The translations under genes and the position numbers were made by a program. The notes beneath the pieces are model-generated. The model worked only from the letters and a program-made list of their open reading frames with translations. It was not told the DNA's origin and ran no database searches. From Phycisphaerales bacterium (lineage in GTDB: Bacteria > Planctomycetota > Phycisphaerae > Phycisphaerales > SM1A02), in the NCBI GenBank assembly GCA_022446885.1, contig JAKVBU010000016.1, positions 1 through 64,000 of the forward strand: a stretch of DNA of 64,000 bases, read 5' to 3'. Below are positions 6,422 to 13,319 of this stretch, in pieces (positions within the stretch are counted from its first letter, which is position 1; every line of letters begins with the position of its first letter).

Positions 6422-6599
6422 GGCTTTCTAATACTAATCTGATTCAGCGACCAAGGAATGTAGAAGATGCCGTGCACTGAATTTCCAGTCGCTACCCTGC
6501 CGCAGCATCACAGTGGGGTTTGTTATTCATTGGAGCGGAAATAAATCTGCACACCGACTTCTTCTAGACCAAGAGCCGTTTACGTTATACGATGAAGCC

Positions 6600-7400
6600 A
6601 TGCTGCCAGCGATGCTACTTAGTGTCGTTTTGAATGCCGGGCTTGAAGAGATATCCGGTTATGGCAGTTCGTACGTCATCTCCATACTCGGTTCGTCGTC
6701 TGATCCGGTGTGCTTGGAATCTAACAGCCTTGAGCTTGGCTTGGATGATCTGACTGCAGGCATCGATGATGAAGCCCTCTGCATATTGAATCCCATTGGC
6801 GCCACGTCCTTCGCGGAAACTGGGATTGAGCTAGGCGATGATGGCTTCACTGCCAGAGTCAATGGTTGGGGGCAGGCTATTGGTGATGAGAAGGCGTCCG
6901 CCTTCAGCCGGCACGATTTGTATGCCTCTGTAGAGCTACAGACAGCGGAGGATCTTCGCGTCCATGTGTCCTGGTTTGTACTAGCTGCTGGGCTAGGAAC
7001 GGTCAATATTCAGGTCAACCGGATCGGTGATATCGGTGGCCCTCAAGATCCAAGCCCTCCAATCATAGATCGTGGTGCCAGTTCATACATCGACCCTATC
7101 AATATGAACGGCTGGGATGTGCTCTACATGCCAGCGGGCAGATGGCGTGTTTTCATGTACTCGACGCATCAGGCAATGGACACCGATCCTGGGTTCATGA
7201 ATGGATTCGCCAGAACGACGCATATCGCGACCTATGTTGCATTGGGGGATGTAGATGGAAGTGGCACAGTCGATATCAGCGACCTGCTCAATGTGATAGA
7301 GCTGTGGGGACCATGTGACCAGTGTCAGGCCGATCTGGATGCCGACGGAGTGGTTGGTGTGTTGGACTTGCTGCAAGTGGTTGCTGATTGGGGAGGCTGA
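6600..7400 (+). CDS. Secreted protein of unknown function with C-terminal dockerin repeats
   Basis: I chose ATG 6600, which gives a signal-peptide start (MLPAMLLSVVLNAG); the longer frame from 6513 adds a charged, unlikely leader. The 266-residue product has a body of about 190 residues that I do not recognise, beta-rich with many acidic residues, and two dockerin loops at the end (DVDGSGTVDISD and DLDADGVVGVLD, each followed by a W-G helix). The C-terminal dockerin pair is the same kind as in the beta-helix gene upstream. In organisms without cohesins such modules may serve in surface attachment or calcium-dependent folding; no cohesin is seen in this window. Confidence 0.62.
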   Translation: MLPAMLLSVVLNAGLEEISGYGSSYVISILGSSSDPVCLESNSLELGLDDLTAGIDDEALCILNPIGATSFAETGIELGDDGFTARVNGWGQAIGDEKASAFSRHDLYASVELQTAEDLRVHVSWFVLAAGLGTVNIQVNRIGDIGGPQDPSPPIIDRGASSYIDPINMNGWDVLYMPAGRWRVFMYSTHQAMDTDPGFMNGFARTTHIATYVALGDVDGSGTVDISDLLNVIELWGPCDQCQADLDADGVVGVLDLLQVVADWGG

Positions 7401-7571: not shown

Positions 7572-7595
7572 GTTCTTCGTTGAGTTGTGAAGAAC
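7572..7595. promoter_or_regulatory. Inverted repeat in the leader of the isochorismatase operon
   Basis: GTTCTTC (7572-7578) and GAAGAAC (7589-7595) form a perfect 7-bp inverted repeat around a 10-base spacer, 65 bases before the preferred start of the first isochorismatase gene. It could be an operator or a leader hairpin. No adjacent regulator gene points to a ligand. Confidence 0.3.
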
Positions 7596-7660
7596 GGGTA
7601 CACTCAGGACTCACCATGTCGACTGACTATGACGTCAGTGTGGAGATTAGGAGTGCCGCA

Positions 7661-8272
7661 ATGAACCCGGCTCAAACAGCGCTTATATTGATCGGTTATC
7701 AGAATGACTACTTTGCCCCCGATGGCATCTTGCAGGGTGTACTCGAGAGCCCGCAACGCACCAGCGAGGTTCTGGGCCGCACGATTCAACTGATTGAGGC
7801 ATTGCAGAATCAGCCCATCACGATGATTGCCACACCGATCATCTTCAGTTCGGACTACTCGGAAGTGACCCAAGCCGGGGGGATCCTCGCAGCCATCAAG
7901 GAAGCAAAGGCATTCCAGGCGGGACAGCCAGGAGCGGCCACGGTTGATGCCCTTGCTGATTTCGGTGACCGTATCATCGAGATACCGGGAAAACGTGGGC
8001 TGAATGCGTTCGTTCAGACAGCGCTGGCGGGCACTTTGGAGTCAAAGCAGATTCAAAGTGTTGTCGTTGCTGGCGCTGTGACATCGATCTGCATCGATTC
8101 CACAGCTCGAGCAGCATATGAGCGGGGTATGAATGTCAGCATTCTGTCCGACTGCACGGCTGCCCGAACCGTCGCCGAGCAGGAGTTCTTCTGTGAGAGC
8201 ATCTTCCCAACCTACGCCACGGTGATGACCTCAGAAGAACTGCTCGCCCAGTGCACGGCCCCGCAGGTCTGA
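7661..8272 (+). CDS. Isochorismatase-family cysteine hydrolase, catalytic Asp replaced by Gly
   Basis: ATG 7661 is preferred because AGGAG lies just ahead of it and the resulting 203 residues match the usual family length; frames from 7580 or 7616 only add a variable leader. The fold is the isochorismatase/nicotinamidase type: ALILIGYQNDYF at the N-terminus, the Lys loop IPGKRGLNAF, and the nucleophile segment VTSICIDSTARAA with Cys. The residue equal to catalytic Asp8 of PncA (IxD-x-Q-N-D-F) is Gly here, while Lys and Cys are kept. The enzyme may therefore have a modified mechanism or a different substrate. It is followed after 16 bases by a second, more degenerate copy and then by a Ser/Thr kinase. 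Confidence 0.8.
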   Translation: MNPAQTALILIGYQNDYFAPDGILQGVLESPQRTSEVLGRTIQLIEALQNQPITMIATPIIFSSDYSEVTQAGGILAAIKEAKAFQAGQPGAATVDALADFGDRIIEIPGKRGLNAFVQTALAGTLESKQIQSVVVAGAVTSICIDSTARAAYERGMNVSILSDCTAARTVAEQEFFCESIFPTYATVMTSEELLAQCTAPQV

Positions 8273-8288
8273 AGGAGCAGGCTGGGCA

Positions 8289-8852
8289 ATGCAGCGACGT
8301 GGTCTAGTAGTTATGGGAATGCAGAAGGGGCTCTTTGGTCGGTACGCCCCATGGCACCAGACCGATGTCCATGACAATGAGGCCAGCCAGGTTGCCTCAC
8401 GCATTTACCAGCTGCTTGCTCACGCCGATGAGTCGTGGTTGAAGAGTATTCATGTGGCCATGGAACTTGAGCCGCAGGAGGCTTCGCAGCCTGCGGAAAA
8501 AGCCATCGTTGCTCGTTCACCAGGCGTGGCGTTAGTTGATGGGTTTGCAACCCGTTATCCACGCGTGGAACAGTTGCAGGCAGCTGCAGGGCGAGATGCT
8601 TTTCGTGGCAGTGATCTTGATCAAGTGCTTGGTGAGCATGGCATCGGACAGATTGTGATCGCCGGGCCGACTATCGCGGGCATCCTTGATGACACATGCC
8701 GAACGGCCTATGCACTGGGCTATGAGGTGGTTGTGCCTTCAGATTGCCTGCTCGCGTCCAGTGAGGCTGAACGCAAGATCTATCTGGAGACGGTGCTTTC
8801 GGCCTATATCCGGGTGATGGATGTGCAGGACATCATCGGAGTGGCAGCGTGA
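8289..8852 (+). CDS. Isochorismatase-fold pseudoenzyme
   Basis: The 187-residue product aligns along its whole length with the preceding gene and the isochorismatase fold (VIAGPTIAGILDDTCRTAYA equals the nucleophile helix; VVPSDCLLA equals the following strand). All three catalytic positions differ: the Asp position is Gly (VVMGMQKG), the Lys is absent before the DAFRGSDLD segment, and the nucleophilic Cys is replaced by Ile/Leu. It therefore looks inactive and may be a partner or regulator of the upstream hydrolase. An AGGAG sequence precedes ATG 8289. Its stop overlaps the GTG start of the kinase gene by four bases (GTGA), which indicates translational coupling. Confidence 0.7.
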   Translation: MQRRGLVVMGMQKGLFGRYAPWHQTDVHDNEASQVASRIYQLLAHADESWLKSIHVAMELEPQEASQPAEKAIVARSPGVALVDGFATRYPRVEQLQAAAGRDAFRGSDLDQVLGEHGIGQIVIAGPTIAGILDDTCRTAYALGYEVVVPSDCLLASSEAERKIYLETVLSAYIRVMDVQDIIGVAA

Positions 8853-10309
8853 GTACTGCAAACGAAGAGGCCAGGCTTCTTGCAAGTACGCTGCCGTCCG
8901 ATCTGATGCCGACGGCAACGTGGCGACCGCCCAATGTTGGGGATCTATTCGTACGGAAGATCTCTGGCAGCAAACCGCCCGAGATCACCCTTCAGGAACA
9001 GGAGCGGATTGACAGTGAACCCGTCGAGTTATTGGTGGGCGAGCTGATCGGCACCGGCGGCATGGGCATGGTGCATGCAGCCGAACAAATGAGCTTGAAT
9101 CGTGAGGTGGCGATCAAGCGTGTGCGGCCAGATCGACTCCATGATGGCTCAGATGCGCAGTTGCAACGCGAAGCGTGTTTGATGGGCCAGCTGGAACACC
9201 CTGCGATTCCTCCACTGCACATGGTGGCTACCGCAGACAACCAGTGTGTGCTGGTCATGCGCCGCGTTCGAGGCATCCCATGGGATCAGAAGTTGGAAGA
9301 CTATGATCTGGAAAGTACCGGGAATATCCTGCAAGGTGCTCCGCTGCGGACGGAGTTGGGAATCCTGATCCGCATAGGCGAAGCCATTGCCTTTGGGCAT
9401 GGACACCGGATTCTCCATCGCGATATCAAGCCCTCCAATGTTGTCATTGGTGACTTTGGCGAGGTCTACGTGCTTGATTGGGGTATCTCAGTTGAGCTCG
9501 ACGAGAACGGTGTCTATGAATCACCAGCATTCTCCGGTACCCCGTCGTTTGCTGCGCCGGAGATGATTGGTCGTAAGCCAATACTCGATGAGCGGACCGA
9601 TGTGTATCAACTTGGGGCCACGCTCTATCACATTGTCACTGGTGGACCGCCACATCAAGGCACGACCGCTGAAGAGGTATTCAATAAAATCCTCATTTCG
9701 CCAGGTCCCGAGATTAGTGATGCATGGCCGTCTTCGCTTGCGGAAGTTTGTCGCAAAGCGCTGGCCCCCGATCCCTCTGATCGGTATTTCTCAGTGCGGG
9801 CCATGCTCGAAGACCTTCGATATGTCATCGAGTACGGCGAGTTAACAGATCTCGAGGTGGAATGTGATCAAAATCTAACCAAGCTTGAAGAAATGGCCCA
9901 ACATCGCCATGTTGATACCGCGACATTCGATGAGGTCGCTGCCCATTGCCGCTATGGCTTGGAACGCATTCTCGAAAGCTGGCCAGGAAACATCGGGGTG
10001 TCTCAGAAGCTGGCCCGATGTTTGTTTCTGCTGTGTGAAACTACGATCGGGCGACAGAATCTGACAGCGGCGAGAGCTAATCTCGCTGAGTATCGTCGAG
10101 TTGGTGGGGAGGATGTCCAGCGTCGAGCCGATACCATGGCCAAGCGCATCGATGCGCTTGCAGATCAACTGATCGCCCGTACAGACGAGTTAGGTGTGAA
10201 TATCCAGGTCCGCCTTGTCGAGAAGTTGGCTCAGCAGCAGCAAGAACTCGAGCAGTTGCAGAAGGCCTATGACGAAATCCGTGGTGGCAAGCAGCCGCCA
10301 AGCGCATAG
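8849..10309 (+). CDS. Soluble Ser/Thr protein kinase with C-terminal coiled coil
   Basis: This 486-residue PknB-type kinase starts at GTG 8849, overlapping the previous stop. The kinase domain spans about residues 60-330: Gly loop IGTGGMGMVHAA (68-75), VAIK Lys90, HRDIKPSN (190-197), DWG at 210-212 in place of DFG, and activation-loop end GTPSFAAPEM. All main catalytic residues are present, so it should be active. The remaining part is helical and ends in a Gln/Leu/Glu-rich coiled coil (about 455-480). I see no transmembrane segment, so it should act in the cytoplasm, unlike most PknB proteins. The operon suggests it may phosphorylate, or be controlled by, the isochorismatase-fold proteins. 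Confidence 0.88.
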   Translation: MSTANEEARLLASTLPSDLMPTATWRPPNVGDLFVRKISGSKPPEITLQEQERIDSEPVELLVGELIGTGGMGMVHAAEQMSLNREVAIKRVRPDRLHDGSDAQLQREACLMGQLEHPAIPPLHMVATADNQCVLVMRRVRGIPWDQKLEDYDLESTGNILQGAPLRTELGILIRIGEAIAFGHGHRILHRDIKPSNVVIGDFGEVYVLDWGISVELDENGVYESPAFSGTPSFAAPEMIGRKPILDERTDVYQLGATLYHIVTGGPPHQGTTAEEVFNKILISPGPEISDAWPSSLAEVCRKALAPDPSDRYFSVRAMLEDLRYVIEYGELTDLEVECDQNLTKLEEMAQHRHVDTATFDEVAAHCRYGLERILESWPGNIGVSQKLARCLFLLCETTIGRQNLTAARANLAEYRRVGGEDVQRRADTMAKRIDALADQLIARTDELGVNIQVRLVEKLAQQQQELEQLQKAYDEIRGGKQPPSA

Positions 10310-10362: not shown

Positions 10363-10740
10363 TCAATCAGTGCTCGATGATTCTGGAAGTGGAATGATGG
10401 CTGCGATGGCTTTGGCGATCTTGGCCGGGGTGCTGGGCTTGCGGAGTACCGTGTCTTCTTCGAAAGGCTCCCGTGCTACGGAGTCGTAGCCGCTGATGAA
10501 CAGCAGCGGTATGTCACGATCGCGCAGGGCCTGCGCAATGGGGATGGAATCCTCCGCGCCCAAGTTGATGTCAAGCACTCCCAGAGCAAGCCCTGGATGA
10601 TCGAGCAGTTCGATGGCCTCGGCTACGGTGGCTGCCGGGCCAACCACTTCAAAGCCAAGTGCTTCGAGATCACGCTTCAGTTGAAGACCAACTAGAAATG
10701 CATCTTCGACAGCTAGGATGGCTGGGGCTGTACTGGCCAT
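10363..10740 (-). CDS. Single-domain response regulator (CheY-like)
   Basis: The 125-residue product is only a receiver domain: acidic pair in ILAVEDAF (Glu12, Asp13), phospho-acceptor Asp57 in VLDINLG, Ser83 in FISGYD, and Lys101 in LRKPS. The VEDAFLV start and LDINLG motif are typical of receivers paired with HWE/HisKA_2 kinases. It has no output domain. It is divergent from the H-NOX/HWE kinase operon, whose first start lies within about 80 bp, so it is probably the phosphate acceptor of that kinase. Confidence 0.87.
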   Translation of the reverse strand: MASTAPAILAVEDAFLVGLQLKRDLEALGFEVVGPAATVAEAIELLDHPGLALGVLDINLGAEDSIPIAQALRDRDIPLLFISGYDSVAREPFEEDTVLRKPSTPAKIAKAIAAIIPLPESSSTD

Positions 10741-10822: not shown

Positions 10823-11284
10823 ATGTATGGCTTGATCAACATCGCGATTCGTGATCTTGTCACCAGCCAATTCGGCCAGCAGCAGTGGGGATCCATCCTT
10901 GCAAGAGCCGAGGTTGATGATGAGCACTTTCTTCGCATGAAGGCGGGGGATGATGCTGCGACCTACGCATTTGTAGGTGCAGCTTCCGAAGAGCTCGACT
11001 CGGCTGGAAAAACGTTGCCAGAGTTCTTGCAGAACCGCGATCAACTCCACACACGAGTGGGCATGACGAATCCAGATCTCAGACCTCAGAAGTGCTCCTG
11101 CAAAGAGATCACAGAGGAGAGACCGGTGCCGCACTGCCGCTCCAGTCGACCAGGCTTACATGATCTTGTCATTGGTCTGCTGGGTGGGCTTAGAAATCGT
11201 TTCAAGGTTGCAGCCGAAGCGAAGCAGTTGGCGTCCAAGGATGACGAGGGAAACTCGTCGACATTCCATGTCAGCTGGTCCTGA
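10823..11284 (+). CDS. H-NOX haem/NO-binding domain protein with internal deletion
   Basis: Start 10823 gives MYGLINIAIRDLV, the conserved first residues of H-NOX proteins; an in-frame ATG at 10784 with an SD-like AGGA is the alternative. The product has 153 residues, about 30 fewer than usual. Compared with sGC beta1 as I remember it, residues after VGAASEELD jump directly to SAGKTLPEFLQNRDQLH, so about 29 residues that form the distal haem-pocket helices are missing in frame. The proximal His (here about residue 76, LHTRVG) remains. The Y-x-S-x-R haem-propionate motif is C-R-S-S-R, with Tyr changed to Cys but Ser and Arg kept. The protein may bind haem weakly, with an open distal face, or not at all. 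Its end overlaps the kinase gene. Confidence 0.8.
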   Translation: MYGLINIAIRDLVTSQFGQQQWGSILARAEVDDEHFLRMKAGDDAATYAFVGAASEELDSAGKTLPEFLQNRDQLHTRVGMTNPDLRPQKCSCKEITEERPVPHCRSSRPGLHDLVIGLLGGLRNRFKVAAEAKQLASKDDEGNSSTFHVSWS

Positions 11285-12746
11285 CGGCCAGGCCCTATCA
11301 CTCAGTGATCTCGGCAATTTGTTGCCGTGGTGTGTCGTAGTCGGTCAAGGTCTCAGAATCGAAAACCTTGGGCACAGATTTGCCCGGCATGTTTCCGGGA
11401 TCAAGGTCGGGAGTTGCTTTGGCGATCATTTCAAGTTGCTGCGACCTGCGCAGCAGATTACGTCTTATGACGATCTTGTCGCCATTGCTGGCCGACTGCT
11501 TGTCGTGGAGGCAAAAGGATTAGCTGTTCCGCTCCGTGGCACCATCATGCAATCCAAGGATCAGAAACGGTGCATTTTTGAAGCGAGCCCATTGATTCGA
11601 TCACAGGCGGAATTGGGCAAGGCCGGGTTGGCGATTCAGGACTTCTCACTGCACGATCCGCTCCCAGATCTACTCCTTGCCTTGCAGGCACGCGATGAGG
11701 CGATTCGGGAAGCTGAGGACAGCAGTCATCGTCAACAGGAATCCAGGGGCCGATTGAAATCGATCCTTGATAGTGCCCTTGATGCGATGATCACCATCGA
11801 TCTTCAGGGCAAGGTTGTCGAATTCAATGACGTGGCTTCTGTGGTGTTTGGTTATGAGCGTGATTATGCCCTTGGGCGGGAGTTGTCAGAACTCATCATT
11901 CCGCCATCACTGCGGGCGCAGCACATGGCTGGCATGGAGCACTTTCGCAAGACCGGCGAAGGCCCCATTCTCCGCCAGCGGATTGAAATCCAAGGAATGC
12001 GATCGGATGGCTCGGAGTTTCCAGTGGCATTGGCGGTAATTCCCTTTGATTATGCCGATCAGAAGTATTTCACAGCCACTCTGCGTGATCTGACCGTTGA
12101 GCATGCGCAGCGGGCAGCAATTGATGAAGCAGCCAGGCAAGAACAGCTTCTTAACCGTGAACTAGACCACCGGGTCAAGAACATGCTGGCACAGATTTTG
12201 GTGCTGTGTCGCCACGCAGAAGGGAATGCCACGGTCGACCGGGATGTGGTTGCCTCGCTCTCCGCGCGGGTGATGAGTTTCTCGACAGTTCATGAACTGC
12301 TTAGTCGCGAGCGTGCAACTGGGATTGAACTGAATGAATTGGTGCGCGTGTGCTTGTCGCCCTACGCCCTTCTTGACACAGCATCAGTGACCATTGAAGG
12401 TCCTTTGTGCAGGGTGTCACCCAAGGCAGCAATGACCCTTGCGATGGTGTTGAACGAGTTGGCAACCAATGCAAGCAAGCACGGAGCATTGGCTCATCAG
12501 GGCACATTGCAGGTCACATGGACTGTTGAGGGCGATGATGAGCCCTTGTTTAGTTTGCAGTGGCGTGAATCACATGATGGGGAAAAGCCAGAGGAACTTA
12601 CAGGTGGATTCGGGTTACAGGTACTTCAAGCGGTCGTTCCTCACGAACTCAAGGGCACGGTCTCTTTGAAAATGCTGAGTGATGGGCTTGAATACACAGC
12701 CTCGATTCCACTTGATCAAGTAACTCAAGAAGATCTATCCAAGTAG
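11268..12746 (+). CDS. H-NOX-associated HWE-family sensor histidine kinase (HNOBA-PAS-HWE)
   Basis: ATG 11268 lies inside the last codons of the H-NOX gene, an overlap of 17 bases; the longer frame from 11160 reads through H-NOX coding sequence and is rejected. The 492-residue product has an HNOBA-type N-terminus (about 8-140, LGNLLPWCVVVGQGLRIEN) that in this family docks to H-NOX, a short coiled coil, a PAS domain (about 160-282, ILDSALDAMITIDLQG) and an HWE/HisKA_2 catalytic core: phospho-His of about 301 in ELDHRVKN, N-box VLNELATNASKHGAL, WRE motif (432-434) and GGFGL. No transmembrane segment is present. It should autophosphorylate under control of H-NOX and pass phosphate to the divergent CheY-like protein. 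Confidence 0.88.
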   Translation: MSAGPDGQALSLSDLGNLLPWCVVVGQGLRIENLGHRFARHVSGIKVGSCFGDHFKLLRPAQQITSYDDLVAIAGRLLVVEAKGLAVPLRGTIMQSKDQKRCIFEASPLIRSQAELGKAGLAIQDFSLHDPLPDLLLALQARDEAIREAEDSSHRQQESRGRLKSILDSALDAMITIDLQGKVVEFNDVASVVFGYERDYALGRELSELIIPPSLRAQHMAGMEHFRKTGEGPILRQRIEIQGMRSDGSEFPVALAVIPFDYADQKYFTATLRDLTVEHAQRAAIDEAARQEQLLNRELDHRVKNMLAQILVLCRHAEGNATVDRDVVASLSARVMSFSTVHELLSRERATGIELNELVRVCLSPYALLDTASVTIEGPLCRVSPKAAMTLAMVLNELATNASKHGALAHQGTLQVTWTVEGDDEPLFSLQWRESHDGEKPEELTGGFGLQVLQAVVPHELKGTVSLKMLSDGLEYTASIPLDQVTQEDLSK

Positions 12747-12758
12747 GGCGCTAAGCCG

Positions 12759-13225
12759 ATGCCCACAGCCAAGGTCTTTCCTGCGGCAGTCAGCGACAAG
12801 GTCCGTCGAGCGGACTTCGAGGCCGCAGGGATCGCCCATGTCGATGCGGCAGGACGAACAGCTGACCTCCATTCACTACGGGCCACCCTGCCACGATGCT
12901 GGCGCGGGCTGGCGTAAAGCCACAGGTGGCCCAGCAGATCATGCGGCACGCCGATTACAAGACAACGCAGAAGCACTACACCCAGTTGAGCCTCGCCGAC
13001 ACAGCAGGCGCTATCGATGTTCTGCCGCCGATTGGACCGCCCGCACCTCAACAGGCGACTGGAACGCTCGGAGGTACCCCCAACAGTAGCCCCAACAGTA
13101 GGGACGCTGAACCCTGCCAGAGCGTGCAACGCCCTGCGCATGTGGCAAGCGGAAGTAATTGGGGAAGGGGAGGCGCAAGTGCCTCTACAGCACCGCGTAA
13201 TGCAAACGCACGCAGCCAAAAGTGA
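12759..13225 (+). pseudogene. Tyrosine recombinase (phage-type integrase) C-terminal remnant, frameshifted
   Basis: From ATG 12759 the frame reads the end of a tyrosine-recombinase catalytic domain to TADLHSLRATL and then runs into a stop at about 12916. One base appears to be lost there: in the +1 frame the protein goes on as ATMLARAGVKPQVAQQIMRH and HADYKTTQKHYTQL. Together the two frames supply the catalytic Arg of LHSLR, the His of MRHADYKTTQ and the Tyr of HYTQL. The N-terminal DNA-binding half and first catalytic Arg are missing. The second frame extends to 13225 with a low-complexity tail. It ends 23 bases from the 3' end of tRNA-Gly, as expected for an element integrated in that tRNA. 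Confidence 0.8.
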
Positions 13226-13247
13226 CTACGTGCGTCTTGCACAAAAA

Positions 13248-13319
13248 AGCGGGTGAACGGATTCGAACCGTCGACATTCACGTTGGCAACGTGACGCTCT
13301 ACCACTGAGCTACACCCGC
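13248..13319 (-). tRNA. tRNA-Gly (anticodon GCC)
   Basis: On the minus strand a full cloverleaf can be drawn: acceptor GCGGGTG with CACCCGC, D arm GCTC/GAGC, anticodon stem TCACG/CGTGA around the loop TTGCCAA (anticodon GCC), and T arm with GGTTCGAATCC. The discriminator is T and CCA is not encoded. A T-run follows the 3' end. The 3' end faces the integrase remnant and the accessory segment to the left. Confidence 0.95.

Follow-up and report, generated by a model that had tools for sequence, protein, structure and literature searches.

Does an H-NOX gene that lacks part of its haem pocket, and that adjoins an intact kinase gene, encode a new kind of sensor or a former sensor in decay? The question arises in a 64-kb window, the whole stretch of DNA analysed here, which lies inside a 96.9-kb contig of a single MAG-like planctomycete (Phycisphaerales) assembly (2.87 Mb in 108 contigs). 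An earlier note on this DNA had proposed a new sensor type with an open or haem-free pocket, and had named as checks an alignment with Pfam HNOB, a structure prediction and a search of related genomes for the same deletion. Our analysis points instead to the probable decay, in this lineage, of a former NO-sensing H-NOX that no longer binds haem. The features of the locus are as follows.

7580..8852, forward strand: two isochorismatase-family genes (7580-8272 and 8289-8852), with a similar gene at the matching place in a congener
8849..10309, forward strand: Ser/Thr protein kinase gene, syntenic in the congener
10363..10740, reverse strand: divergent stand-alone response regulator receiver of 125 aa, with its position conserved in the congener
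10823..11284, forward strand: H-NOX (HNOB) gene with an in-frame internal deletion of 28 codons, 153 aa, from translation and Pfam
10994..10999, forward strand: deletion junction, L58/D59, with a few bases' ambiguity, where relatives have an additional 84 bp, from orthologue comparison
11048..11050, forward strand: codon of the retained proximal His, H76, an invariant column, from translation
11135..11149, forward strand: YxSxR motif, reading C-R-S-S-R (C105, S107, R109), from translation and alignment
11268..12746, forward strand: HNOBA-PAS-HWE histidine kinase, 492 aa from the ATG at 11268, from Pfam

Judged by its profile score, the 153-aa protein is an H-NOX by descent. It matches HNOB (Pfam PF07700) with an E value of 3.5e-20 and 73 bits, above the curated cut-off of 25.5, and the match falls into two pieces, profile positions 1-58 and 87-160 of 163. 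This alignment bears out the earlier description of a normal start and end, with the proximal His and the motif Ser and Arg in place (H76, S107 and R109). The congener (G001) has a complete 181-aa H-NOX orthologue at the corresponding locus, and those of near relatives are likewise complete at 181 aa. Because these genes are longer by exactly 28 codons, all in a single block, the gap comprises 28 residues (84 bp) and is in frame; the absence of about 29 residues reported before thus stands as to frame and is corrected as to number.

The missing segment was kept in all 51 intact relatives compared, and its residues L66, F69, G70 and W73 (congener numbering) were invariant among them. In the model of the congener protein (pLDDT 94.6), the missing residues 59-86 make up a helix (62-79) and run into the beginning of the following one. 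What has been lost is helix alpha-E, on the distal side of the haem pocket, together with the hinge Gly; this agrees with the assignment to the distal side made in the earlier note. The four invariant residues align with Leu67, Phe70, the hinge Gly and Trp74 of Nostoc H-NOX, in which Trp74, Leu66, Leu67 and Phe70 form part of the wall of the distal pocket or gas tunnel (PMC7356049); the glycine hinge carries the subdomain rotation of H-NOX (PMC7108781). A 40-residue bait, in a search run without a positive control, found the missing segment nowhere else in the genome.

Damage was also observed outside the gap. We defined near-invariant columns as those conserved at 98% or more, with 51 intact relatives as the comparison set. 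The short protein breaks five of 27 such columns (L50F, L72R, P89Q, F91C and Y105C), whereas the intact relatives break only 0-2. When the comparison was restricted to near orthologues, the short protein departed from 14 of 69 invariant H-NOX columns, versus 3-6 of about 60 for each of three relatives. The Tyr of the YxSxR motif, invariant in 50 aligned intact sequences, is C105, as had been read before, and P89Q turns the second Pro of a PP pair into Gln. The conserved proximal Pro of H-NOX distorts the haem, and position 89 would correspond to Tt P115. The protein has three Cys (91, 93 and 105), two of which are absent from relatives. All 153 codons form an open frame, with no stop and no frameshift, and the C-terminus is kept. 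Compensating frameshifts in the divergent RPQKCSC..HCRSSR stretch were considered and ruled out by codon-for-codon alignment.

The structure prediction told the same protein apart from its congener. AlphaFold2 gave the 153-aa protein a pLDDT of 70.7 and a pTM of 0.53, whereas the congener, from practically the same alignment, reached 94.6 and 0.90. Compared with Nostoc H-NOX (PDB 2o09), the low-confidence model of the short protein had a TM-score of 0.63 and an rmsd of 8.2 Å, versus 0.96 and 1.4 Å for the congener. VIA-align Z scores were 11.8-11.9 for the short protein and 28.9-29.5 for the congener; at Z 11.9, 135 residues of the low-confidence prediction aligned at 3.5 Å. Since the congener control models well, the loss probably lies in the protein and not in the method. 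The low-confidence model, no firm guide to the real fold, suggests a disturbed, rearranged structure in which the pocket is not kept as a tidy open cavity. The part of the earlier proposal that concerned an open pocket finds no support in this model; a haem-free state is likely. TRAPP/Bet3-type structural matches, listed below the H-NOX rows, were set aside as background since the intact congener gives them too.

We used the adjoining kinase as a control for evolutionary rate. The H-NOX branch leading to this genome measured 0.60 substitutions per site, versus 0.16-0.19 in sisters, and the kinase branch on the same single topology measured 0.29, versus 0.26-0.29. Relative to sister lineages, the protein branch was 3.4 times as long for H-NOX (2.0-5.0) and 1.05 times for the kinase, so that the H-NOX branch was ∼3.3 times too long relative to the kinase branch (ratio of ratios; bootstrap 1.8-5.8). 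With the one branch long and the other ordinary, the acceleration is confined to H-NOX. We relied on protein branch lengths with the kinase control because synonymous changes were saturated, which makes omega values unreliable. A codon model rejected an omega of 1 for the whole H-NOX branch (p 0.002), a weak test at saturated synonymous sites, and most of the branch was therefore constrained. The test cannot date the relaxation, again owing to saturation, and its result fits a long period of constraint followed by relaxation.

The kinase itself showed no such damage. By eye, the H-box, N-box and G-box are present. The frame is open and complete, and only three of 54 invariant positions are broken in a near-orthologue comparison, which is ordinary. 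From the sequence, the HNOBA, PAS and HWE kinase domains look intact, and the earlier description of the kinase as intact is borne out, with Pfam domains, an open frame and no excess of broken positions. In four orthologous loci (the window, G001, G159 and G006) the kinase gene begins with an ATG placed 14 nt upstream of the H-NOX stop codon, an overlap that makes coupled translation likely.

The wider neighborhood is shared with the congener G001, in the order isochorismatase-type gene, Ser/Thr kinase, divergent response regulator, H-NOX and HNOBA-PAS-HWE kinase. The response regulator looks intact and is a probable partner. The genus's third genome, a second congener, lacks H-NOX along with orthologues of both the HNOBA kinase and the Ser/Thr kinase. 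Just 3' of the HNOBA kinase, an ORF at 12896-13225 begins with a stretch (RHADYKTTQKHYT) that resembles a tyrosine recombinase C-terminus, and had no match in Pfam. It adjoins a tRNA-Gly(gcc) gene (13248-13319, reverse strand), and the region 12838-13319 may be the vestige of an integrated element. On the other side of the locus, the protein encoded at 6513-7400 of the window has a weak C-terminal match to dockerin type I (23.5 bits versus a cut-off of 22.9).

The search of related genomes for the same deletion ended with this one genome: in overlapping samples of 181 genomes from the family, 397 from the class and 392 from the phylum, no other H-NOX had the 28-codon gap. Nor were relatives of the 153-aa protein found in genome contigs by back-translated patterns; the congener protein as a query returned five records, all full length and all from Phycisphaerales/Phycisphaerae MAGs. 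HNOB is present in 97 of the 181 family genomes, and H-NOX genes decay repeatedly in this family. G126 holds two broken copies (L078 and L079), one split by a frameshift and the other split with a TAA inside; in G123 and G051 the gene is truncated. G050 carries an H-NOX (L082, G050:C34, 3319-3738) with an independent in-frame deletion of 44 codons, which removes the conserved Pro and the YxSxR region, another place than the gap in the window. Next to the G050, G126, G123 and G051 remnants, the search for an intact kinase of the same HNOBA-HWE type yielded nothing beyond a weak partial match in G126, and the G050 gene is an imperfect parallel for that reason. Several relatives have tandem H-NOX pairs: L007/L012 in G004, L074 in G056, L075 in G102 and L086 in G131.

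How might the gene have come to this state? Most near relatives have Leu-Asp or similar codons at both ends of the 84-bp segment, 28 codons apart. This spacing fits a slipped-strand deletion, although the likeness covers two codons only and is seen in relatives. We propose that a slippage-type deletion of 84 bp between the two Leu-Asp sites took out helix alpha-E along with the hinge Gly and the haem-bordering Trp, and that the conserved Pro, the YxSxR Tyr and core Leu/Phe residues were lost by substitution. A direct-repeat search in the window bears weakly on this step, as the window shows the bases left after the deletion and not the ancestral ones. The H-NOX frame plausibly stays open because frameshifts or stops would harm translation of the overlapping kinase. 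Since the kinase is still conserved, the output half probably remains functional; the kinase would then run without gas input, either constitutively or via its own PAS domain. If decay is correct, the locus shows a gas-sensing kinase system at a moment when it is losing its sensor and keeping its kinase, with the gene overlap as the likely reason why the sensor gene has no interrupted frame. The protein at 10823-11284 should not be annotated as an NO sensor.

Several observations run against decay, namely the frame free of stops and frameshifts, the retained H76, S107, R109 and C-terminus, and the rejection of neutrality (p 0.002, from a weak test). An alternative is a pseudo-H-NOX, haem-free and folded, that would hold or tune the kinase through retained surfaces. 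In Shewanella and Vibrio, hydrogen-deuterium exchange (HDX) assigns kinase binding to a surface formed by alpha-A to alpha-C and alpha-F (PMC7108781); because these parts are mostly still encoded, the short protein may have a haem-free regulatory role. The frame is open, the coupled kinase is intact, full neutrality is rejected by the codon model, and the sGC alpha subunit offers an earlier example of an H-NOX without haem (PMC8196705). Nevertheless, core positions have changed non-conservatively, the hinge Gly is deleted, the low-confidence model is rearranged and only a single lineage is concerned, so that we judge this reading unlikely. That selection keeps the shortened haem-free protein because it regulates the HNOBA-HWE kinase as a subunit, perhaps by means of its Cys trio or protein contacts in place of haem, seems to us decidedly unlikely; a gene kept for its function would be a natural minimal H-NOX with which to ask which surfaces the kinase needs.

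An assembly or strain-mixture artefact of one MAG, with the organism in fact carrying the 84 bp, has in its favour that the gap is known from one assembly and that the species-level sets included no second genome of the species. The gap is nonetheless in frame, 28 codons long and inside a 96.9-kb contig, and independent substitutions at fixed sites lie in the same domain; an assembly gap would not explain the five substitutions, which makes an artefact very unlikely. For a new haem sensor whose open distal pocket still binds haem or another ligand, the retained proximal His, Ser and Arg can be cited. However, the Pro, Tyr, hinge Gly, distal Trp and core residues are gone, the pocket is not kept in the predicted fold, and no other genome among the family, class and phylum samples has such a protein, so that we regard it as extremely improbable. 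The new sensor type of the earlier note thus gives way to a probable lineage-specific decay: one genome only, fixed positions changed fast and non-conservatively, a disturbed predicted fold and decay elsewhere in the family.

Like other bacterial H-NOX/HNOBA-kinase pairs, the gene adjoins an HNOBA kinase, as it does in the congener. It is homologous at both ends to the Nostoc sp. PCC 7120 H-NOX Alr2278 (PDB 2o09), with the proximal His and the motif Ser and Arg. Unlike Alr2278, it has lost 28 residues (alpha-E; aligning to Nostoc L66/L67, F70 and W74) as well as the YxSxR Tyr and the Pro, and its predicted fold departs (TM 0.63). The G050, G126, G123 and G051 remnants resemble it in that internal or terminal H-NOX segments were lost in single lineages; those genes, however, are frameshifted, truncated or deleted elsewhere. 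The idea of a haem-less H-NOX beside a kinase recalls the redox H-NOX of Vibrio cholerae, which works through four Cys at a zinc/disulphide site (PMC7108781), whereas the short protein has only three. With the sGC alpha pseudo-H-NOX (PMC8196705) it shares descent from H-NOX, loss of haem-motif residues and, probably, absence of haem. In sGC alpha an N-terminal extension keeps haem out of the pocket (PMC8196705); the short H-NOX instead has a pocket helix deleted and, with its ORF starting at most 13 residues upstream of MYGL, no such extension. If kept by selection, the short H-NOX would parallel the sGC alpha pseudo-H-NOX in a bacterium.
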